Below, in pieces: positions 46,144-52,578 of a stretch of 64,000 nucleotides of DNA (the stretch's first letter is position 1; each line of letters opens with the position of its first letter). The position numbers were made by a program, and so were the translations under genes. Source of the stretch: Natronomonas marina (GTDB lineage: Archaea > Halobacteriota > Halobacteria > Halobacteriales > Haloarculaceae); contig NZ_CP101154.1 of assembly GCF_024298905.1 (NCBI RefSeq), positions 558,001 to 622,000 of the forward strand, written 5' to 3'. The notes beneath the pieces are model-generated. The model was not told the DNA's origin and made no database searches. It saw only the letters and a program-made list of their open reading frames with translations.

Positions 46144-46179
46144 TTTCGCGGGCGTCTCGTTTCGCGGTCGCCGAGCAGC

Positions 46180-46520
46180 GTGAAGTGCTTCGGGGTCAAG
46201 TGGTTCGAGAATCGAAGATTCTCGTCATCACGAGAGAGCTCCGCTCTCTCGAACGACCCCGAGGCTTCTTGTTTCCACGACGCACTTTGCAGATTCCACG
46301 GCGGAATCCACAGGGAGCGCAGTCTCCGCAGGCGTGGATTCGGCCTCTCCCAGACCTACTTGGTGGCGACGGCGGCGCGTCCGACCGTCCGTGTTTTTGG
46401 ACTTGAAGCCGGAGGCACGTTGTGCCGTCACACTCCATCATTCAGCATCTTGCAACTTAATGGCTTGTGCCATTACGTGTCGGCTTCATCCACGGGGTCA
46501 AGCCCCGTGGCATTCGCCTT
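46180..46520 (-). pseudogene. Remnant of an IS1341-type tnpB element, minus strand
   Basis: No intact gene. Reading the minus strand, about 46431-46228 encodes a tail with STPAETALPVDSAVESAKCVVETRSLG, closely resembling the C-terminal tail of many haloarchaeal TnpB proteins as I remember them. Downstream are hairpins GAGAGCGGAGCTCTC and GAGAATCTTCGATTCTC, as in a transposon right end. Upstream is a perfect hairpin CCACGGGG-TCAAG-CCCCGTGG (46490-46510) followed on the minus strand by GAAGCCGACAC, a motif found in the other two elements of this window. An internal deletion derivative is the simplest reading. Confidence 0.55.
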
Positions 46521-46573
46521 GCAATTCTGTAAACCTGCCCGCGAAGTCTTCCGAACAGAACGGAGAAGCCTTA

Positions 46574-46650
46574 CTACTCGGTGTAGAAGACGAACACCTG
46601 TCCCACTTCTTCACGCTGAATCTCTCCTTTCGAACGGCGCGTTCAGCAGC
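46574..46650 (-). pseudogene. 3' part of a relic restriction-modification gene (winged-helix C-terminus)
   Basis: On the minus strand this reads EIQREEVGQVFVFYTE and a stop (46574-46576), matching NEIKREKVGRAFVFYIE at the end of the intact winged-helix gene at 50618. Similarity continues, with a small frameshift, to about 46647 (LLNAPF against RLDTLF). The tnpB element then interrupts it; the 5' part resumes at 48202. It is the far side of the insertion. Confidence 0.75.
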
Positions 46651-46866
46651 TTCGAGGCGGAGCCTCCGGCCTCAAGGAGCGAGGGCTTCCGACTGGTCGG
46701 AAGCACGAAGCGAGTGGGCCGGGGAGGACAGCGAGGCGCGGAGCGCCTCGGGCCGTGCGAGCGGGCAGAGCCCGCGCGCAGAAGCCGACACTCGGTGACG
46801 CAAATGACGGGACTGTAGCTGTCCGACTCCCGGATTATTAAGTATCGCCGAAACAAGATCTGAAAT

Positions 46867-48121
46867 ATGGAGGTCAGACGAACCGCGCCGGTCAAACTCG
46901 TTGTTCCCGACGAGTACCACGAGGACCTCCACGAAACCGCCGAGCAATTCCTATACTGCGTGAAAGAAGCCAGTGACTACTGCTGGGACAATACAGATTA
47001 CGAAGACTGTATCACCTCGAACGTGACAGCCAGGGATGCGCTGTACGACCGACTCCGCGAGGAAACTGACCTGACAGCGAATCTCGTCCAAGAAGCCATC
47101 CGGCGTGCCGTCCACGCGGTTGATAGTGGCGTTGACCGCTGGAAGAAAGGCAAACGGACGAACAAACCAGCGTTCACCTCTTGGAGTGTGGTCTACGACA
47201 AGCGCAGTGCGACGTTCTACCGCAACAAAATCTCACTTTCGACGGTGAACGGACGCATCCAGTGTGAGTTTGAACTCCCAGCAGATGGTCCAACACCATA
47301 CGAGGAGTACGTCCTTTCGGACAACTACGAGTTTCGCACGAGCACACTCCAGTACGACCAAGCAACCGACGAGTTCTACTTCCATGTCAAAACACGGAAG
47401 ACAGACGACGAAGGCGAGGCCCTCGAAGTTGAGATTCGGACGATACCGGGCACCAAACAGTCCTCGGGATCGACCTCGGCGTGAACAGTCTCGCCGTTAC
47501 GTCAACAGGCACGTTCTGGAGCGGTGACGAATACGACCACTGGATACAGGAGTTCGAGAAGCGCCGGGCCGAGATGCAACAGCGTGGGACGCAAGCCGCT
47601 CATAACGCCTTGCTGCGGCTTGGAAAGCGCGAAACAGCATGGCGGAAACAGTATATCATACAGTCGCCAACGAGATCGTTGCTGAAGCGGTTGACCACGA
47701 CTGCGACGTGATTGTGTTCGAGGACCTGACCGACATTCGAGAGCGGCTGCCCCACGCCGACTGGCATCACATCTGGGCATTTCGCCGTCTTGTTGAGTAC
47801 GTCGAGTACAAAGCTCCAGAACGCGGTGTCGCGGTTGAACAGGTCGACCCCGACCACACCAGCCAGCGGTGTTCGCACACCGACTGTGGGTTTACTCACG
47901 AAGACAACCGCGACGGCGAGCAGTTCCGGTGTTCGAAATGCGGGTACGAAATCAACGCAGATTATAACGGCGCGAAAAACGTCGGACTGCGATATATGCG
48001 GAAGCGACAACACAGACTGCGTTCCTCGCCCACGTCGGGGAGCGCAGACGCACCAGTAGACGTGCGTGTAAATGGTGGGATGTTGAACGGCGACGGCTAT
48101 CGGCCACCCGCCGACAGCTGA
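46867..48121 (+). pseudogene. tnpB: tnpB, RNA-guided nuclease of IS1341-type element, disrupted by two frameshifts
   Basis: The N-terminal part (46867-47450) is in frame 1 (MEVRRTAPVKLVVPDEY...). The frame must change near 47440-47455 to continue into TVLGIDLGVNSLAV, and again near 47657 (one base missing before HTVANEIV) to reach the C-terminal part ending in [15 protein letters not shown] at 48121. All RuvC acidic positions ([21 protein letters not shown]) and the zinc ribbon (CSHTDC, CSKCG) survive, so decay is recent. TATA-like ATTATTAAG about 27 nt before the ATG. The length if repaired is normal for TnpB. Confidence 0.85.
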
Positions 48122-48201
48122 TCGCCGGGCGTCCACATCAAAGCCCCTCCCTCAAGAACCGAGGCGCGTATGCGCCGAGGGAGTAGGGAGGGGTAGTTTA
48201 C
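48040..48201 (+). ncRNA. Probable omega/sotRNA region at the tnpB 3' end
   Basis: In IS200/IS605 and IS1341 elements the RNA guide scaffold is made from the end of tnpB and the right end; overlapping sense RNAs at this place are known in Halobacterium. Here the tnpB end and the right-end hairpin (48144-48193) are intact and the same two pieces are retained in the tnpB-less copy at 62150-62340. The guide would be the flank to the right of about 48201. No transcript evidence. Confidence 0.4.
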
Positions 48202-48336
48202 TCGTCCGTATGCGAGGTCGCAGGAACAGCCCACCCTCTCCGCGACGTTCGAGTTCTGGTCTATAATCCGGTTGAACTCCTCGAGGTCCGGTTTCCACCC
48301 GCTCCAGTAGTCCGGCGGGTCTCCGACACGGCCCAC
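48202..48336 (-). pseudogene. 5' part of a relic chimeric restriction gene (endonuclease N-terminus fused to winged-helix middle)
   Basis: Minus-strand reading gives PPDYWSGWKPDLEEFNRIIDQNSN, matching PPDYWNDWRLDPEEFNRIIDDNSN of the intact endonuclease at 51766. It continues in frame as VAERVGCSCDLAYGR, matching VAEYVGCSYDLAYRR of the intact winged-helix gene at 50618. The switch falls at a CGTTCGA heptamer present in both parents. DNA similarity to the endonuclease upstream region extends to about 48394 (CGTTTACAGCCC...ATTGAAAGGAAC). So this is a deletion scar of a second copy of the system, later split by the tnpB element. Confidence 0.78.
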
Positions 48337-48500
48337 GATACGGTGCTGCTGTTGTGTACGACGTTTACAGCCCGGATTGAAAGGAACATACAGGAACGAA
48401 CGTCACGCCGACTGCATCAGTGACACCTCCTGCACCGGGGCTGTGATCCTAACCCGAGCACGGCGACGTCGCCAAGACAGGGAAGCAGAGCGGTCGACAG

Positions 48501-48530
48501 ACTTATTTGAACAGCTGCTAAATCGTTCAA
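48501..48530 (+). promoter_or_regulatory. arsR promoter with inverted-repeat operator
   Basis: TATA-like ACTTATTT (48501-48508) lies about 28 nt before the ATG at 48533. Between them TTGAAC (48507-48512) and GTTCAA (48525-48530) form a perfect inverted repeat with a 12-nt spacer, overlapping the TATA edge and reaching the start codon. This is the place and form expected for ArsR/SmtB autoregulation. Confidence 0.6.
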
Positions 48531-48532
48531 CC

Positions 48533-48931
48533 ATGTCGCAGGAGACCGAACGCCTCCGCCGGTACATGACACAGCAGGTCGGGGACTGCTGTGAGGCGGA
48601 CGTCGAGACCCGCATCGAGACTCTCCGGGGATACCGGTCGGACGCCGGGTCGGCGCCCGACGAGGACCGAACCGCGCTGAAGACGCTCGGCGACGAGACG
48701 CGTCACCGCATCGTCCGACTGCTCGTCGCGGCCGGGGAGGAACTGTGTGTCTGTGAGATAACGCCCGCCGTCGACGTGAGCGACAGCGCCATCAGTCACG
48801 CGCTCTCGGACCTCTACGACGCCGGCCTCGTCGCCCGTCGCAAGGAGGGACGGTGGCGCCACTACGAGGCGACCCCCCGCGCCGAGGCACTGCTGGGGGC
48901 GCTCGACGCGACCCGGGGGGACCGCCAGTGA
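48533..48931 (+). CDS. arsR: ArsR/SmtB family arsenic- or metal-responsive repressor
   Basis: 132 residues. Winged helix with TLGDETRHRIVRLLVAAGEELCVCEI; the C72-x-C74 pair in the recognition-helix region is the classical arsenite/antimonite site, and an extra CC pair lies at 19-20. SDSAISHALSDLYDAGLV is the DNA-reading helix. It overlaps the next gene by 4 bases, indicating one operon with the arsenate-reductase-like phosphatase. The start is fixed by the TATA spacing. Confidence 0.88.
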   Translation: MSQETERLRRYMTQQVGDCCEADVETRIETLRGYRSDAGSAPDEDRTALKTLGDETRHRIVRLLVAAGEELCVCEITPAVDVSDSAISHALSDLYDAGLVARRKEGRWRHYEATPRAEALLGALDATRGDRQ

Positions 48932-49377
48932 GCGACGACGGCGGTCCAGTCCGGGTCGCGTTCGTTTGCGTCCGGAACGCCGGCCGCTCGCAGATGGCGA
49001 CCGCCTTCGCCGAGGTCGAGCGCGAACGCCGCGGTCTCGCCGACGCCGTCGAGGTACTGACCGGCGGAACGCGTCCCGCAGAACGCGTCCACGAGGAGGT
49101 CGTGACCGTGATGGAGGAAGCGGGGGTCGACCTCTCGGGCACTGTTCCGCGGGCCATCACGACCGGGGAACTCGAGTCCTGCGAGTACGTCGCAACCATG
49201 GGCTGTTCGACGCTGGAACTCGACGCGGACGCGTCCGGCGTCGACGTCCGCGAGTGGGCGCTGACCGACCCCGACGGTCGGCCGCTCGAGGACGTGCGCG
49301 AGATCCGCGAGGAGGTCCGGGCACGCGTCGGCGACCTCTTCGACGAGATCGAGCGGGAGGCGACGACGAGTGTCTGA
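48928..49377 (+). CDS. arsC: Low-molecular-weight protein tyrosine phosphatase/arsenate reductase
   Basis: 149 residues. The P-loop CVRNAGRS (C14-x5-R20) begins directly after the first strand, as in thioredoxin-type ArsC and LMW-PTP. The GTG start overlaps the arsR stop. With an ArsR partner an arsenate reductase role is most likely, though the sequence alone cannot exclude a phosphatase. No arsenite efflux gene (arsB/acr3) is recognised next to it. Confidence 0.85.
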   Translation: MSDDGGPVRVAFVCVRNAGRSQMATAFAEVERERRGLADAVEVLTGGTRPAERVHEEVVTVMEEAGVDLSGTVPRAITTGELESCEYVATMGCSTLELDADASGVDVREWALTDPDGRPLEDVREIREEVRARVGDLFDEIEREATTSV

Positions 49378-49453
49378 TCCCGACCCGGGCGACCACCCGG
49401 GGACCAACTCGGGCGACGACGGCTGGCGACTCGTCCGAGAGCGGGACGGGTAG
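49370..49453 (+). CDS. 27-residue reading frame between arsC and the membrane protein gene
   Basis: A GTG inside the arsC tail opens VSDPDPGDHPGTNSGDDG and ends WRLVRERDG two bases before the next gene. The composition is acidic as in real proteins here, and the tight spacing bridges two genes, but it is very short and may be only a coupling peptide or chance. Confidence 0.22.
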   Translation: MSDPDPGDHPGTNSGDDGWRLVRERDG

Positions 49454-49455
49454 CC

Positions 49456-50508
49456 GTGGCGGTTTCGGACCTCTGGGCGGTCGGGATGGTGCTGGCCGCC
49501 TTCGCCGGCGGCGCCTTCGGCGCGAGCGTCGGGGCGCTACCGTCGTTTTCGCTTGCGGGGCTGATGGTGGTCGTCGGCGAACTCTACGAACTCGTCGGCC
49601 GGGCGTCGGGCGCGGAGACGCTCCCGGTCGATATCACGGGGTCGATCGCGTTCGGCGTCGTGCTGGGTCCCCACGTCGCGTTCGGGGGCGGCGCCGCCGC
49701 GCTGGCCTACGCGACGAGGCGGGGTTACCTCGACACCGACTTCGACTACCACCAGGCAAAGGAAGTGACACGCGGACTCGGGAACAGACCGGACGTGCTC
49801 GCTGTCGGCGGGCTGTTCGGCGTCGTCGGCTACTGGATCGCCACGCTGTCGGCAAGCCTCTCGGTCCCGGTCGACCCCGTCGCGCTGGGCGTGGTCGGGT
49901 CGGCGGTCGCACACCGGCTGGCGTTCGGCTACAGCCTCGTCGGTGCGCGACCGGCCCGGTGGTTCGACATGGAACCGTTCGAGCAGGGGGTCTCGGGGGA
50001 CGAGGGGAGACTCGCCGACGGCGGCTCGCGGACCGTCGAGCCGTGGCTCCCCTACCAGTACCGGTGGGGCGACGTCGCGGCACTCGGAGCGGTCGTCGGG
50101 ATTCTCGGCGGCTACGTCGCCTGGCTGACGGCGAGTCCGTTCCTCGCGTTCGGTATCAGCGTCGTCGCGCTGGTCTTCCTCAACGCGGGCGTGGCCGAGG
50201 TGCCGGTGACCCACCACGCCTCGCTGCCCGCCAGCACCGCGGTGCTGGCGCTGGTCGACGCCCCGGCCGGCGCGTTGACGCCGGCGCTCGTGGCGGGTGC
50301 GGTGCCGCTGGAGACGGCGCTCCTCGTCGGTGGTGCGTTCGGCGTTCTCGGGTCCCTGTTCGGTGAAGTCGCCCAGCGCGTCCTCTACGCCCACGCCGAG
50401 ACGCACCTCGACCCACCGGCGGCGAGCATCGTCGTCACCTCGCTGTGTATCGGCCTGCTGGCGATGGCGGGCGTCCTGCCGTCGTCGGTGTGGATCCCGC
50501 TCCCGTGA
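49456..50508 (+). CDS. Integral membrane protein downstream of arsR-arsC
   Basis: 350 residues with about nine hydrophobic helices, a soluble loop with FDYHQAKEVTRGLGNRPDV, and a second with ARWFDMEPFEQG. GTG start at 49456. It follows the ars genes in the same direction with about 80 bp and a tiny frame in between, so it may be co-transcribed. It does not show ArsB or Acr3 motifs that I can recognise, so an arsenic role is speculation from context. Confidence 0.7.
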   Translation: MAVSDLWAVGMVLAAFAGGAFGASVGALPSFSLAGLMVVVGELYELVGRASGAETLPVDITGSIAFGVVLGPHVAFGGGAAALAYATRRGYLDTDFDYHQAKEVTRGLGNRPDVLAVGGLFGVVGYWIATLSASLSVPVDPVALGVVGSAVAHRLAFGYSLVGARPARWFDMEPFEQGVSGDEGRLADGGSRTVEPWLPYQYRWGDVAALGAVVGILGGYVAWLTASPFLAFGISVVALVFLNAGVAEVPVTHHASLPASTAVLALVDAPAGALTPALVAGAVPLETALLVGGAFGVLGSLFGEVAQRVLYAHAETHLDPPAASIVVTSLCIGLLAMAGVLPSSVWIPLP

Positions 50509-50617
50509 ACGGACCGGCTCCCGCGTGCGGACGTCGGTCCGAATCGAAGCCCCAGTTCGTTCTCTCGCGGTCGAGTCGCCCCGTCGACGCGCACTGTATC
50601 GACCAGGACTGCCACAG

Positions 50618-50842
50618 TCACTCGATATAAAATACGAACGCCCGTCCGACCTTCTCCCGCTTGATTTCGTTGTCGCCGAACAGCGTGTCGAGGCGGCGGT
50701 ACGCCAGGTCGTACGAGCACCCGACGTACTCCGCGACGTTCGACGTGGACGCGACGTGGAGTGACTCGACCGCTTCGACGAACGCGTCGTCGGGGTAGTC
50801 CTCCTCGAACCGCCCCGCATCGTCTCGCTTCTCCTCGTCCAT
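50618..50842 (-). CDS. Winged-helix protein of the restriction-modification locus
   Basis: 74 residues: acidic start, then VESLHVASTSNVAEYVGCSYDLAYRRLDTLF (helix-turn-helix) and a wing NEIKREKVGRAFVFYIE. The ATG at 50842 lies about 27 nt after a TATA-like CTTTATCA (50868-50875), favoured over an upstream TTG. Divergent from the methyltransferase gene. Position and fold suggest the controller of the system. A relic of this gene is fused to an endonuclease fragment at 46574-48336. Confidence 0.75.
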   Translation of the reverse strand: MDEEKRDDAGRFEEDYPDDAFVEAVESLHVASTSNVAEYVGCSYDLAYRRLDTLFGDNEIKREKVGRAFVFYIE

Positions 50843-50867
50843 ACCTGTCGACTCGTAACACCAACTG

Positions 50868-50921
50868 ATAAAGCGACACACATCCTCACCGTTCAATTCA
50901 AACTTGAACGGGTAGCTTTAA
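50868..50921. promoter_or_regulatory. Divergent promoter region of the restriction-modification system with palindrome
   Basis: Two TATA-like boxes point outward: 50868-50875 for the winged-helix gene and 50914-50920 (CTTTAAC) for the methyltransferase gene. Between them GTTCAA (50891-50896) and TTGAAC (50904-50909) form a perfect inverted repeat, with a second nested TTCAA-AC-TTGAA. This is a good candidate operator controlling both directions. Confidence 0.6.
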
Positions 50922-50950
50922 CCTATCGCGCCAACACTGATTACAACGGG

Positions 50951-51769
50951 ATGAGTGAAACCGAAGGTCACGCCGACGAATCACGGCTCGTCACCGACTT
51001 CAGCGGTGACGTATCTCTCGACGAGTTCCGTCTCGACGGGACCGTACAGACGACACTAACGAAGGGCGAAGAGGAGGAACTCGTCCTGTCTGCCTATCGG
51101 GAACGGAACGACGAGGTGTTCCCGCGAGTCCTCGACCTGCACGTCGAGGAGGGGGCAACCATCGCGGACGTGACCTACGGCAAAGGTGTCTTCTGGAAGA
51201 ACGTCGACTTCGGGCAGTACGACGTGTACGCGTCCGACTTGTCCGCCGAGAAGTCCCCGTCGGGGTATCCGGTTGATTGTCGCAACCTCCCCTACGAAGA
51301 CGACTTCCTCGATGTAGTCGTCTTAGATCCACCGTACGCGGAAGGATTCTTCCGCAAGAACGAAGATATGCTCGCTGGCGGGGACAGTTCTCACTCTCAG
51401 TTCCGCGAGAATTACAGCAACGGGGAGGTTCTGGATACGCGCGGGTCGAAGTACCACCAAGCAGTATTCGACCTGTACGCCGAAGCCGGGATCGAGGCAC
51501 AGCGCGTGCTGAAGAACGACGGAACACTCATCGTCAAAACGCAGGACGAAGTGAGCGCGAACACCCAGGAGCTCACCCACGTCCAGATTACGAACTTCTA
51601 CGAATCGAAACTGGGGATGTATACGAAGGACCTGTTCGTCGTCGTGCGGTCGAACAGACCCGCGGTTTCGGGGATGAACCGACAGGTTCACGCCCGCAAG
51701 AACCACTCCTACTTCCTCGTGTACGAACTGGACGGAACTCCCACAAACACGCTGGAATCGAACATCTAA
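50951..51769 (+). CDS. DNA methyltransferase (N6-adenine/N4-cytosine type) of a restriction-modification system
   Basis: 272 residues. SAM-binding motif I is near residues 70-80 (ATIADVTYGKGVFW), the catalytic motif IV is DPPY at 126-129, and VLKNDGTLIVKTQDEV is a later core strand. Motif I precedes IV, so it is of the alpha/gamma order, but no separate target-recognition domain is obvious in this short protein. Tail-to-tail with the endonuclease gene (4-base overlap). Less GC-rich than its neighbours, suggesting transfer. Confidence 0.85.
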   Translation: MSETEGHADESRLVTDFSGDVSLDEFRLDGTVQTTLTKGEEEELVLSAYRERNDEVFPRVLDLHVEEGATIADVTYGKGVFWKNVDFGQYDVYASDLSAEKSPSGYPVDCRNLPYEDDFLDVVVLDPPYAEGFFRKNEDMLAGGDSSHSQFRENYSNGEVLDTRGSKYHQAVFDLYAEAGIEAQRVLKNDGTLIVKTQDEVSANTQELTHVQITNFYESKLGMYTKDLFVVVRSNRPAVSGMNRQVHARKNHSYFLVYELDGTPTNTLESNI

Positions 51770-52434
51770 TTTCGCTCTTGGAGCACTTCGTCCATCAGGG
51801 CCGACAGGTCATCGGTGTAGGGGTCCTCGACCGGAATCTCGAATTTCGGCTGTGATTTCGAGAGTTTCTGCCTCAGTCCCTCGGGATAGTTCCCTTTCGA
51901 CCGCGGAAGGTCGGTGACTCTGACGAACGCGAAATCCCACTCGTCTTTGACTTCGTACAGGTTCACGGCTATAATGTCAATATCGCTGTTTTCGACGTCC
52001 ATCAGTACCGTGCTGTACGTTTCTCCGTCGTGTTCGATGTCGCGCGGATCACTGGAGCCCTTGAGATGGAACCCGACTTCGATTTTCCTGTCCCCCTCGG
52101 TGAGTGTCGTCTGGTTTTCATCCACGTCGGGAACGGTTCGGCTCTGGAGGCTCTTCACCTCGATTTTCATCGGCTCACCCTTGTACGTGAATGCCCAGTC
52201 GCCCTTGTCGCTCTCGTCTTGGTCGTCGGGCGTGCGGATGTCTTCGATGGCGGGATCGTCTTCGAGATACATCTCGCGCATCCGTTCTTCGGCCACGTAG
52301 CCGAAGATTGCGCTGAGGGCGTTCGAGTTGTCGTCGATTATCCGGTTGAACTCCTCGGGGTCCAGCCGCCAGTCGTTCCAGTAGTCCGGAGGGTTCTCGT
52401 CAGGCACGTCACGGGATTGCTGTGCAGTTTTCAA
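51766..52434 (-). CDS. PD-(D/E)XK restriction endonuclease
   Basis: 222 residues. The nuclease core is D79 in KGDWAFTY and E92-x-K94 in MKIEVKSL, the canonical D...ExK pattern; further strands follow in DIDIIAVNLYEV and WDFAFVRV. The N-terminal PPDYWNDWRLDPEEFNRIIDD is repeated in the relic at 48.3 kb. Paired tail to tail with a DNA methyltransferase, so restriction is the most likely role. The recognition site is unknown. Confidence 0.78.
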   Translation of the reverse strand: MKTAQQSRDVPDENPPDYWNDWRLDPEEFNRIIDDNSNALSAIFGYVAEERMREMYLEDDPAIEDIRTPDDQDESDKGDWAFTYKGEPMKIEVKSLQSRTVPDVDENQTTLTEGDRKIEVGFHLKGSSDPRDIEHDGETYSTVLMDVENSDIDIIAVNLYEVKDEWDFAFVRVTDLPRSKGNYPEGLRQKLSKSQPKFEIPVEDPYTDDLSALMDEVLQERN

Positions 52435-52578
52435 GAATGGCGCTTACATCCGAAATTGAACCGAAATATCGCAGGGAGCCACACCACGTAGTCGTGCGTG
52501 GTCGATCCTCGGTGAGAAAGACGGGGGATGCGGCACGAGTGTAGTGCGATCCCCGCCGCCCGACGGCACCGCAGCGTT

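Follow-up and report, generated by a model that had tools for sequence, protein, structure and literature searches.

The 64,000-nucleotide stretch of Natronomonas marina DNA analysed here (the window) carries an intact three-gene restriction-modification (R-M) unit and, ~2 kb from it in the same orientation, what appears to be the scar of a second unit of the same kind. We consider it likely, with a probability of roughly 85%, that the scar derives from a second R-M-W unit through a ~1.6-kb deletion at a 7-bp match, followed by the entry of an insertion sequence (IS) and then by drift. In this unit R denotes the endonuclease, M the methyltransferase and W a small winged-helix protein. The genome comprises 3.99 Mb in two contigs. 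An assembly artefact was considered as the origin of the scar and thought unlikely, as the window lies inside a 3.85-Mb contig and the scar was recovered by a whole-genome search.

A variable insert holds both copies

The scar and the intact unit lie between a ferredoxin gene, left of the scar, and an isochorismatase gene, right of the intact unit. These flanking genes are adjacent in nine of 17 loci of the genus, and at one locus (L054) only 66 bp separate them; the adjacency argues that the segment from 46144 to ~52560 is an insert in this genome. Its components are a repeat, the scar including the IS element, a cassette and the intact unit. The cassette (48533-50508) stands between the two R-M copies, with genes for an ArsR regulator, for a low-molecular-weight phosphatase/arsenate-reductase-like product and for a protein of 350 residues that has no family.

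The gap between the ferredoxin and isochorismatase genes (46144-52560) is a variable spot in the genus, with differing contents of up to ~10 kb (L056, L062). Scans of nine hotspot loci and of the window for tRNA genes found none. The repeat of ~360 bp (46175-46545), which starts ~28 bp beyond the W stop codon of the scar, has three further copies in the genome at 98-99% and looks like a non-autonomous mobile element.

The intact R-M-W unit

The intact neighbour (50618-52434) is a predicted type II restriction-modification unit in which R and W lie on one strand and M lies between them on the opposite strand. R (51766-52434, minus strand) encodes a PD-(D/E)XK-type restriction endonuclease; the listed start is a TTG at 52434, and comparison with relatives makes a GTG at 52407 the more likely one. 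M (50951-51769, plus strand) encodes a DNA methyltransferase that matches PF01555 (N6_N4 methylase domain) above the family cut-off and carries a DPPY motif invariant in three units. W (50618-50842, minus strand) encodes a winged-helix protein of 74 residues. The identical layout is found in other haloarchaeal loci (L003/L071, L004/L070, L067 and L068/L073); L068 and L073 give the same matches, look like one genome and were counted as one unit. One genome of the same genus (G132) carries an R-M-W unit too. The possibility that the winged helix is a domain of the nuclease was rejected, as W forms a gene of its own in the window and at L003, L004, L067, L068, L070, L071 and L073.

Neither R nor W has a family in PADLOC, Pfam or NCBIfam. 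Sequence searches of the PDB with R and with M, and of a phage collection with R, returned nothing useful, and W gave weak PDB matches to winged-helix and related regulators (best E 0.068). The predicted structure of R (pLDDT 82.9) aligned to EcoRV with a VIA-align Z of 5.9 (rmsd 4.2, 132 aligned) and to the archaeal Hjc with a Z of about 8, and the best Foldseek E was only 1.5e-3. Residues E49, D79, E92 and K94 are invariant in 13 aligned archaeal and bacterial sequences. Judged by the model, R is a separate nuclease with a predicted restriction-enzyme fold. The best fold match of R was the homing endonuclease I-Ssp6803I (VIA-align Z 12.6, rmsd 4.3, 138 aligned).

With the genome itself included in both counts, R was found in three of 146 genomes of the family by a single-sequence search and in four of 392 genomes of the order by a profile search, in which the scar was the only partial match; M was found in 16 of the 392. 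A first contig scan with R returned no relative, and a scan of viral contigs with M returned 30 loci.

The scar retains both outer ends of a second unit

Read on the minus strand from 48420 to 46574, the scar runs from an R-type promoter through the R start to a switch at CGTTCGA and on into the rest of W. The remnant of the R 5' end (48246-48336, minus strand) amounts to about 30 codons and ends at residue ~38; nothing is left after that point, so the invariant E49, D79, E92 and K94 are all missing. Directly after the join, alignment to intact W identifies the middle of that gene, SNVAERVGCSCDLAYGR (48202-48252, minus strand), and to the left of the IS the 3' end of W, with GQVFVFYTE and a stop codon, occupies 46574-46642 on the minus strand, where a small indel breaks the frame. 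Right of the IS, the minus strand reads PPDYWSGWKPDLEEFNRIIDQNSN followed by VAERVGCSCDLAYGRV in a single frame, with R codons up to NSN and uninterrupted W from SNVAE onward.

The resemblance to the intact unit could be detected on either side of the join. Within the window, blastn aligned the scar to R over 75 bp (83%, E 9e-17) and to W over 45 bp (78%, E 8e-5). Blastn did not pick up the piece to the left of the IS (46560-46650); aligned locally to W, this piece scores 44, and 500 shuffles gave no more than 30. With the IS removed, the whole W remnant aligns through the W stop codon (46574) with two small gaps that break the frame and a score of 86, the best of 880 real pieces of the window reaching 56. 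Upstream of R the scar resembles the promoter region of intact R more weakly, with a score of 30 that was reached by four of 1,787 real pieces. Downstream of the W stop, no homology between scar and intact unit was found, as the score there was equalled or exceeded by 873 of 881 control pieces. A search of the whole 3.99-Mb genome with R gave two matches only, the intact gene and the scar. With both outer ends in the expected order and orientation and the inner part missing, the scar can be classed, from its sequence, as the remnant of an R-M-W unit.

These results bear out most of what the sequence-only reading had claimed. Its proposal that the scar is a second copy of the same system is upheld by the two-sided homology in order and orientation, and the alignment that it suggested gave significant identity on both sides of the junction. 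The resemblance that it saw in the upstream DNA is real, if weaker than that of the coding part, and the loss of the whole of M and most of R agrees with a scar that contains neither M nor any catalytic part of R. Its account of the joined frame needs amending: the N-terminus of R is indeed joined in frame to W sequence, and the winged helix and the C-terminus that it had assigned to the nuclease belong to the W gene. No R, M or W was found at the place of the scar in the loci of 17 relatives, where it had suggested looking for an undeleted copy, and no genome with an undeleted second copy was found among 392 genomes of the order.

On either side of the join, the intact neighbour gives the highest alignment score to the scar of all the units compared. 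The R part scores 99 against the neighbour (69 of 87 positions identical) and no more than 66 against five other loci; for the W part the score is 86 (84 of 124) and at other loci at most 62 (71 of 108), although the identities on the W side hardly differ, at 68% to the intact neighbour and 66% to L073. At five of 31 positions that do not vary among three intact units the scar has a different residue, N20S, D21G and L24P in R and Y45C and R50G in W. Differences between the scar and the intact unit fall at codon positions 1, 2 and 3 in numbers of 2, 2 and 9 in the W part and of 2, 5 and 5 in the R part, the latter not telling alone. The preponderance of third-position differences in the W part is what two working genes would show, and it suggests that selection once acted on the second unit at the protein level. 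On these small numbers, our reading is that the unit functioned for a long time before it was cut and then decayed.

The join coincides with a 7-bp match

The join lies at CGTTCGA (48246-48252), which is identical in intact R (52320-52326) and intact W (50737-50743). Both intact genes carry TCGAACG (CGTTCGA on the plus strand) exactly at the point where the scar switches from one to the other, the shared run being exactly 7 bp, and the two intact copies are 1583 bp apart, which corresponds to the missing part. A match of at least 7 bp is present at 190 of 132,912 possible pairs of R and W breakpoints (0.14%). The deletion at this heptamer that had been proposed from the sequence is thereby supported, with the qualification that the heptamer is known from the intact paralogue, ~20-30% diverged, which stands in for the true parent. 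TCGAACG was absent from the junction place in the other units compared.

The element that interrupts the W remnant (46643-48201, plus strand) has its ends set from other copies in the genome, the best of which is 87% identical over the IS length. Its TnpB open frame is broken in two (46867-47484 and 47639-48121) and matches PF07282 (E 1.6e-22), TIGR01766 and the Cas12f1-like TNB and guided_TnpB families, and no TnpA gene was found among the open reading frames listed for the window. By its RuvC/TNB domain it is assigned to the TnpB-only elements of the IS200/IS605 kind. Elsewhere in the genome the two ends of the element (46643-46728 and 48107-48201) also occur as short pairs that lack TnpB, at several of L118-L125, as small deleted derivatives.

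Taken together, the preferred account would run as follows. The locus would once have held two related R-M-W units in the same orientation, flanking the arsR/phosphatase/membrane-protein cassette. In the left unit a single ~1.6-kb deletion would have joined R codon ~38 to W codon ~35 via TCGAACG, taking with it the complete M gene and the catalytic parts of R in one step. That one event sufficed is our inference, and its route may have been microhomology end joining or replication slippage. The TnpB-only IS would have entered the W stub afterwards, an order that is likewise presumed, and the remainder would have drifted. The two units may go back to a tandem duplication or to two separate arrivals, 87 and 124 alignment columns being too few for a tree.

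Alternative origins and the cost of the unit

An origin in several steps, by decay of R and then loss of M or by a rearrangement helped by the IS, with the 7-bp match due to chance, seems improbable to us. It draws some support from the fact that the parent is represented by a paralogue alone and from the position of the IS, 44 bp from the join. R-like sequence nevertheless reaches the join and W-like sequence starts there at once, with 8 bp exact, the ends of the IS match its other copies and lie away from the join, and a match of this length at the breakpoint would be expected in so small a share of pairs. Still harder to sustain is the idea that the joined frame once encoded a functional R-W fusion until the IS disrupted it. 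R does run into W in one frame, and functional fusions of C protein and endonuclease have been described (PMC3850674), but an in-frame join arises by chance in one case of three, and the product would lack every invariant catalytic residue of R as well as the N-terminal ~34 residues of W. The order-wide search with R, which matched four of 392 genomes, gave no second example of such a fusion. We favour the single deletion within a second R-M-W unit over both of these origins.

Loss of M alone should be lethal. In the single deletion R and M would have gone together, and the neighbour could have methylated the same or overlapping sites, so that the cell would have survived without post-segregational killing. 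The loss would have been tolerated, on this view, since the methylase and the nuclease activity disappeared at once while a related unit remained. The sequence-only reading had gone further and presumed that the deletion released the cell from a costly or lethal unit. That the deletion was favoured for this reason is, in our view, rather unlikely. R and M did vanish together, and one study (PMC6471742) characterises R-M units as selfish addiction cassettes with frequent loss in haloarchaea. Yet the locus bears no sign of selection or of a cost, a neutral loss fits equally, and an intact unit of the same family is kept ~2 kb away, which argues that such units are tolerated; that neighbour could itself have made the loss harmless. 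Safe loss thanks to a related neighbour, as in R-M incompatibility, is a guess, if a better-grounded one than relief from a lethal unit, and it goes with the further guess that both units had the same target.

Operator-like sites before R and M

Three similar 17-bp sites are found at the two copies. The remnant R promoter of the scar contains TTCAATCCGGGCTGTAA (48365-48381, minus strand), the region between the divergent W and M genes contains TTCAATTCAAACTTGAA (50892-50908, plus strand) and the promoter of intact R contains TTCAATTTCGGATGTAA (52444-52460, minus strand). The palindrome between W and M has counterparts at L071, TTCAATCCGGGATTGAA, and L070, TTCAATCCAGAATTGAA, and the site before R has counterparts at L071, TTCAATTTCCGATTTAA, and L073, TTCAATTCCGGCTGTAA; the sites of L067 fit the motif poorly. 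The motif was first noticed by comparing the upstream sequences of the intact unit, L071, L070 and the scar. A weight matrix was then built from five sites of L070, L071 and L073, all from other genomes, with the intact and scar sites excluded and a doubtful R site of L070 dropped before training. Over all positions of the window on both strands, it ranked the intact R site (26.7), the scar site (23.1) and the intact M/W site (22.4) at the top, the next unrelated place scoring 13.9. An exact R-type pattern occurred in the whole genome only at the scar and at the intact R site, a pattern that was written after these two had been seen and was not blind.

A TATA-like stretch follows directly downstream of the site at M, and one overlaps the right arm of the site at R, TATA being our own reading. 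The 17-bp sites common to the promoters of R and M are candidate operators. Their similarity would suggest that the two units belonged to one regulatory group, and the operator-like site kept in the scar fits this. A scan of the W loci beside D12 methylases (L146 and L147) found no close site, which suggests that each subfamily of W would have its own.

W as a candidate controller

Judged from gene context and sequence, W probably controls the intact unit. If a repressor acted on R and spared or helped M, it would do the work of a C protein. Compared with the XRE/C-protein family, W had no Pfam or NCBIfam match, and its winged-helix matches in the PDB are weak. In the family, 57 of 146 genomes contain relatives of W at an E of 1e-8 or better. 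Outside R-M-W units, neighbours were sampled at 17 loci (L146-L162), with 20 open reading frames picked by acidity and length in the 15 loci L148-L162 and three taken from L146-L147. A D12 methylase stands beside W at L146, L147 and L148, the last also with a DpnII endonuclease; other neighbours are BrxL of BREX (L162), a DUF499 protein (L153), an AAA_5 ATPase (L156) and an HNH protein (L159). Three of the 17 loci have SWIM proteins and seven had no family in the tested frames, so that the 15 loci L148-L162 divide into seven without a family, three with SWIM proteins and five with defence-like or nuclease families. This supports, and does not show, the possibility that W relatives are a haloarchaeal family of small regulators that time defence genes.

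Seen in this light the locus could be a natural fossil of archaeal R-M incompatibility, with two units of one regulatory group of which one was lost safely under its neighbour's protection, and W could be one of a family of small haloarchaeal proteins that control defence genes and, built on a winged helix, do C-protein work with another fold; we hold this combined view tentatively and at less than even odds. The preserved join allows M and the active part of R to be seen going together beside a surviving relative, which opens incompatibility and safe loss to testing in an existing archaeal pair. For the question of how archaea might bring a methylase into action ahead of its nuclease, the W family and the operator-like site would be concrete starting points.

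Relation to known R-M systems

The decay of R-M units is known biology, and their loss is usually inferred from patchy distribution. Our finding adds a new and well-preserved case of a known process, with the possible W controller family as a more novel by-product; new here is the 17-bp operator-like site before R and M that is kept in the scar. In literature judged by titles and the openings of abstracts, we found no archaeal R-M join of this kind and no winged-helix R-M controller from haloarchaea, and the terms 'controller' and 'C protein' are absent from the main text of a survey of archaeal R-M systems (PMC10609329).

According to a review (PMC3874152), a cell that carries two R-M systems of shared target is not killed when it loses one of them, and the operators of C proteins also define incompatibility groups. 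The locus is alike in that two related units with similar operator-like sites stood in one genome and one was lost while the other was kept; it differs in being archaeal and inferred from a fossil, and in that the same target is presumed. A report on Haloferax volcanii (PMC7521656) describes deletions that arise by microhomology end joining under self-targeting or self-cutting. For Halobacteria, another study (PMC6471742) describes gain and loss of R-M systems as patchy and proposes stepwise deletion that begins with inactivation of the endonuclease. The sparse distribution of R (4 of 392 genomes) and the loss seen here agree with that pattern, but M and most of R apparently went in one step. 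Fusions of the CR.NsoJS138I type (PMC3850674) likewise have endonuclease and regulator sequence in one frame, whereas the join in the window is a dead stub without the catalytic part.

Among known systems, a close likeness is the type II unit on the Shigella boydii plasmid pSB13 (NC_019357), whose R and M are 31% (over 206 residues) and 58% identical to those of the window. As in the window unit, R and M converge and a small gene for a DNA-binding regulator adjoins. The pSB13 regulator is a helix-turn-helix protein that matches XRE proteins and C.BclI and lies upstream of R, whereas W is winged-helix-like and divergent from M.
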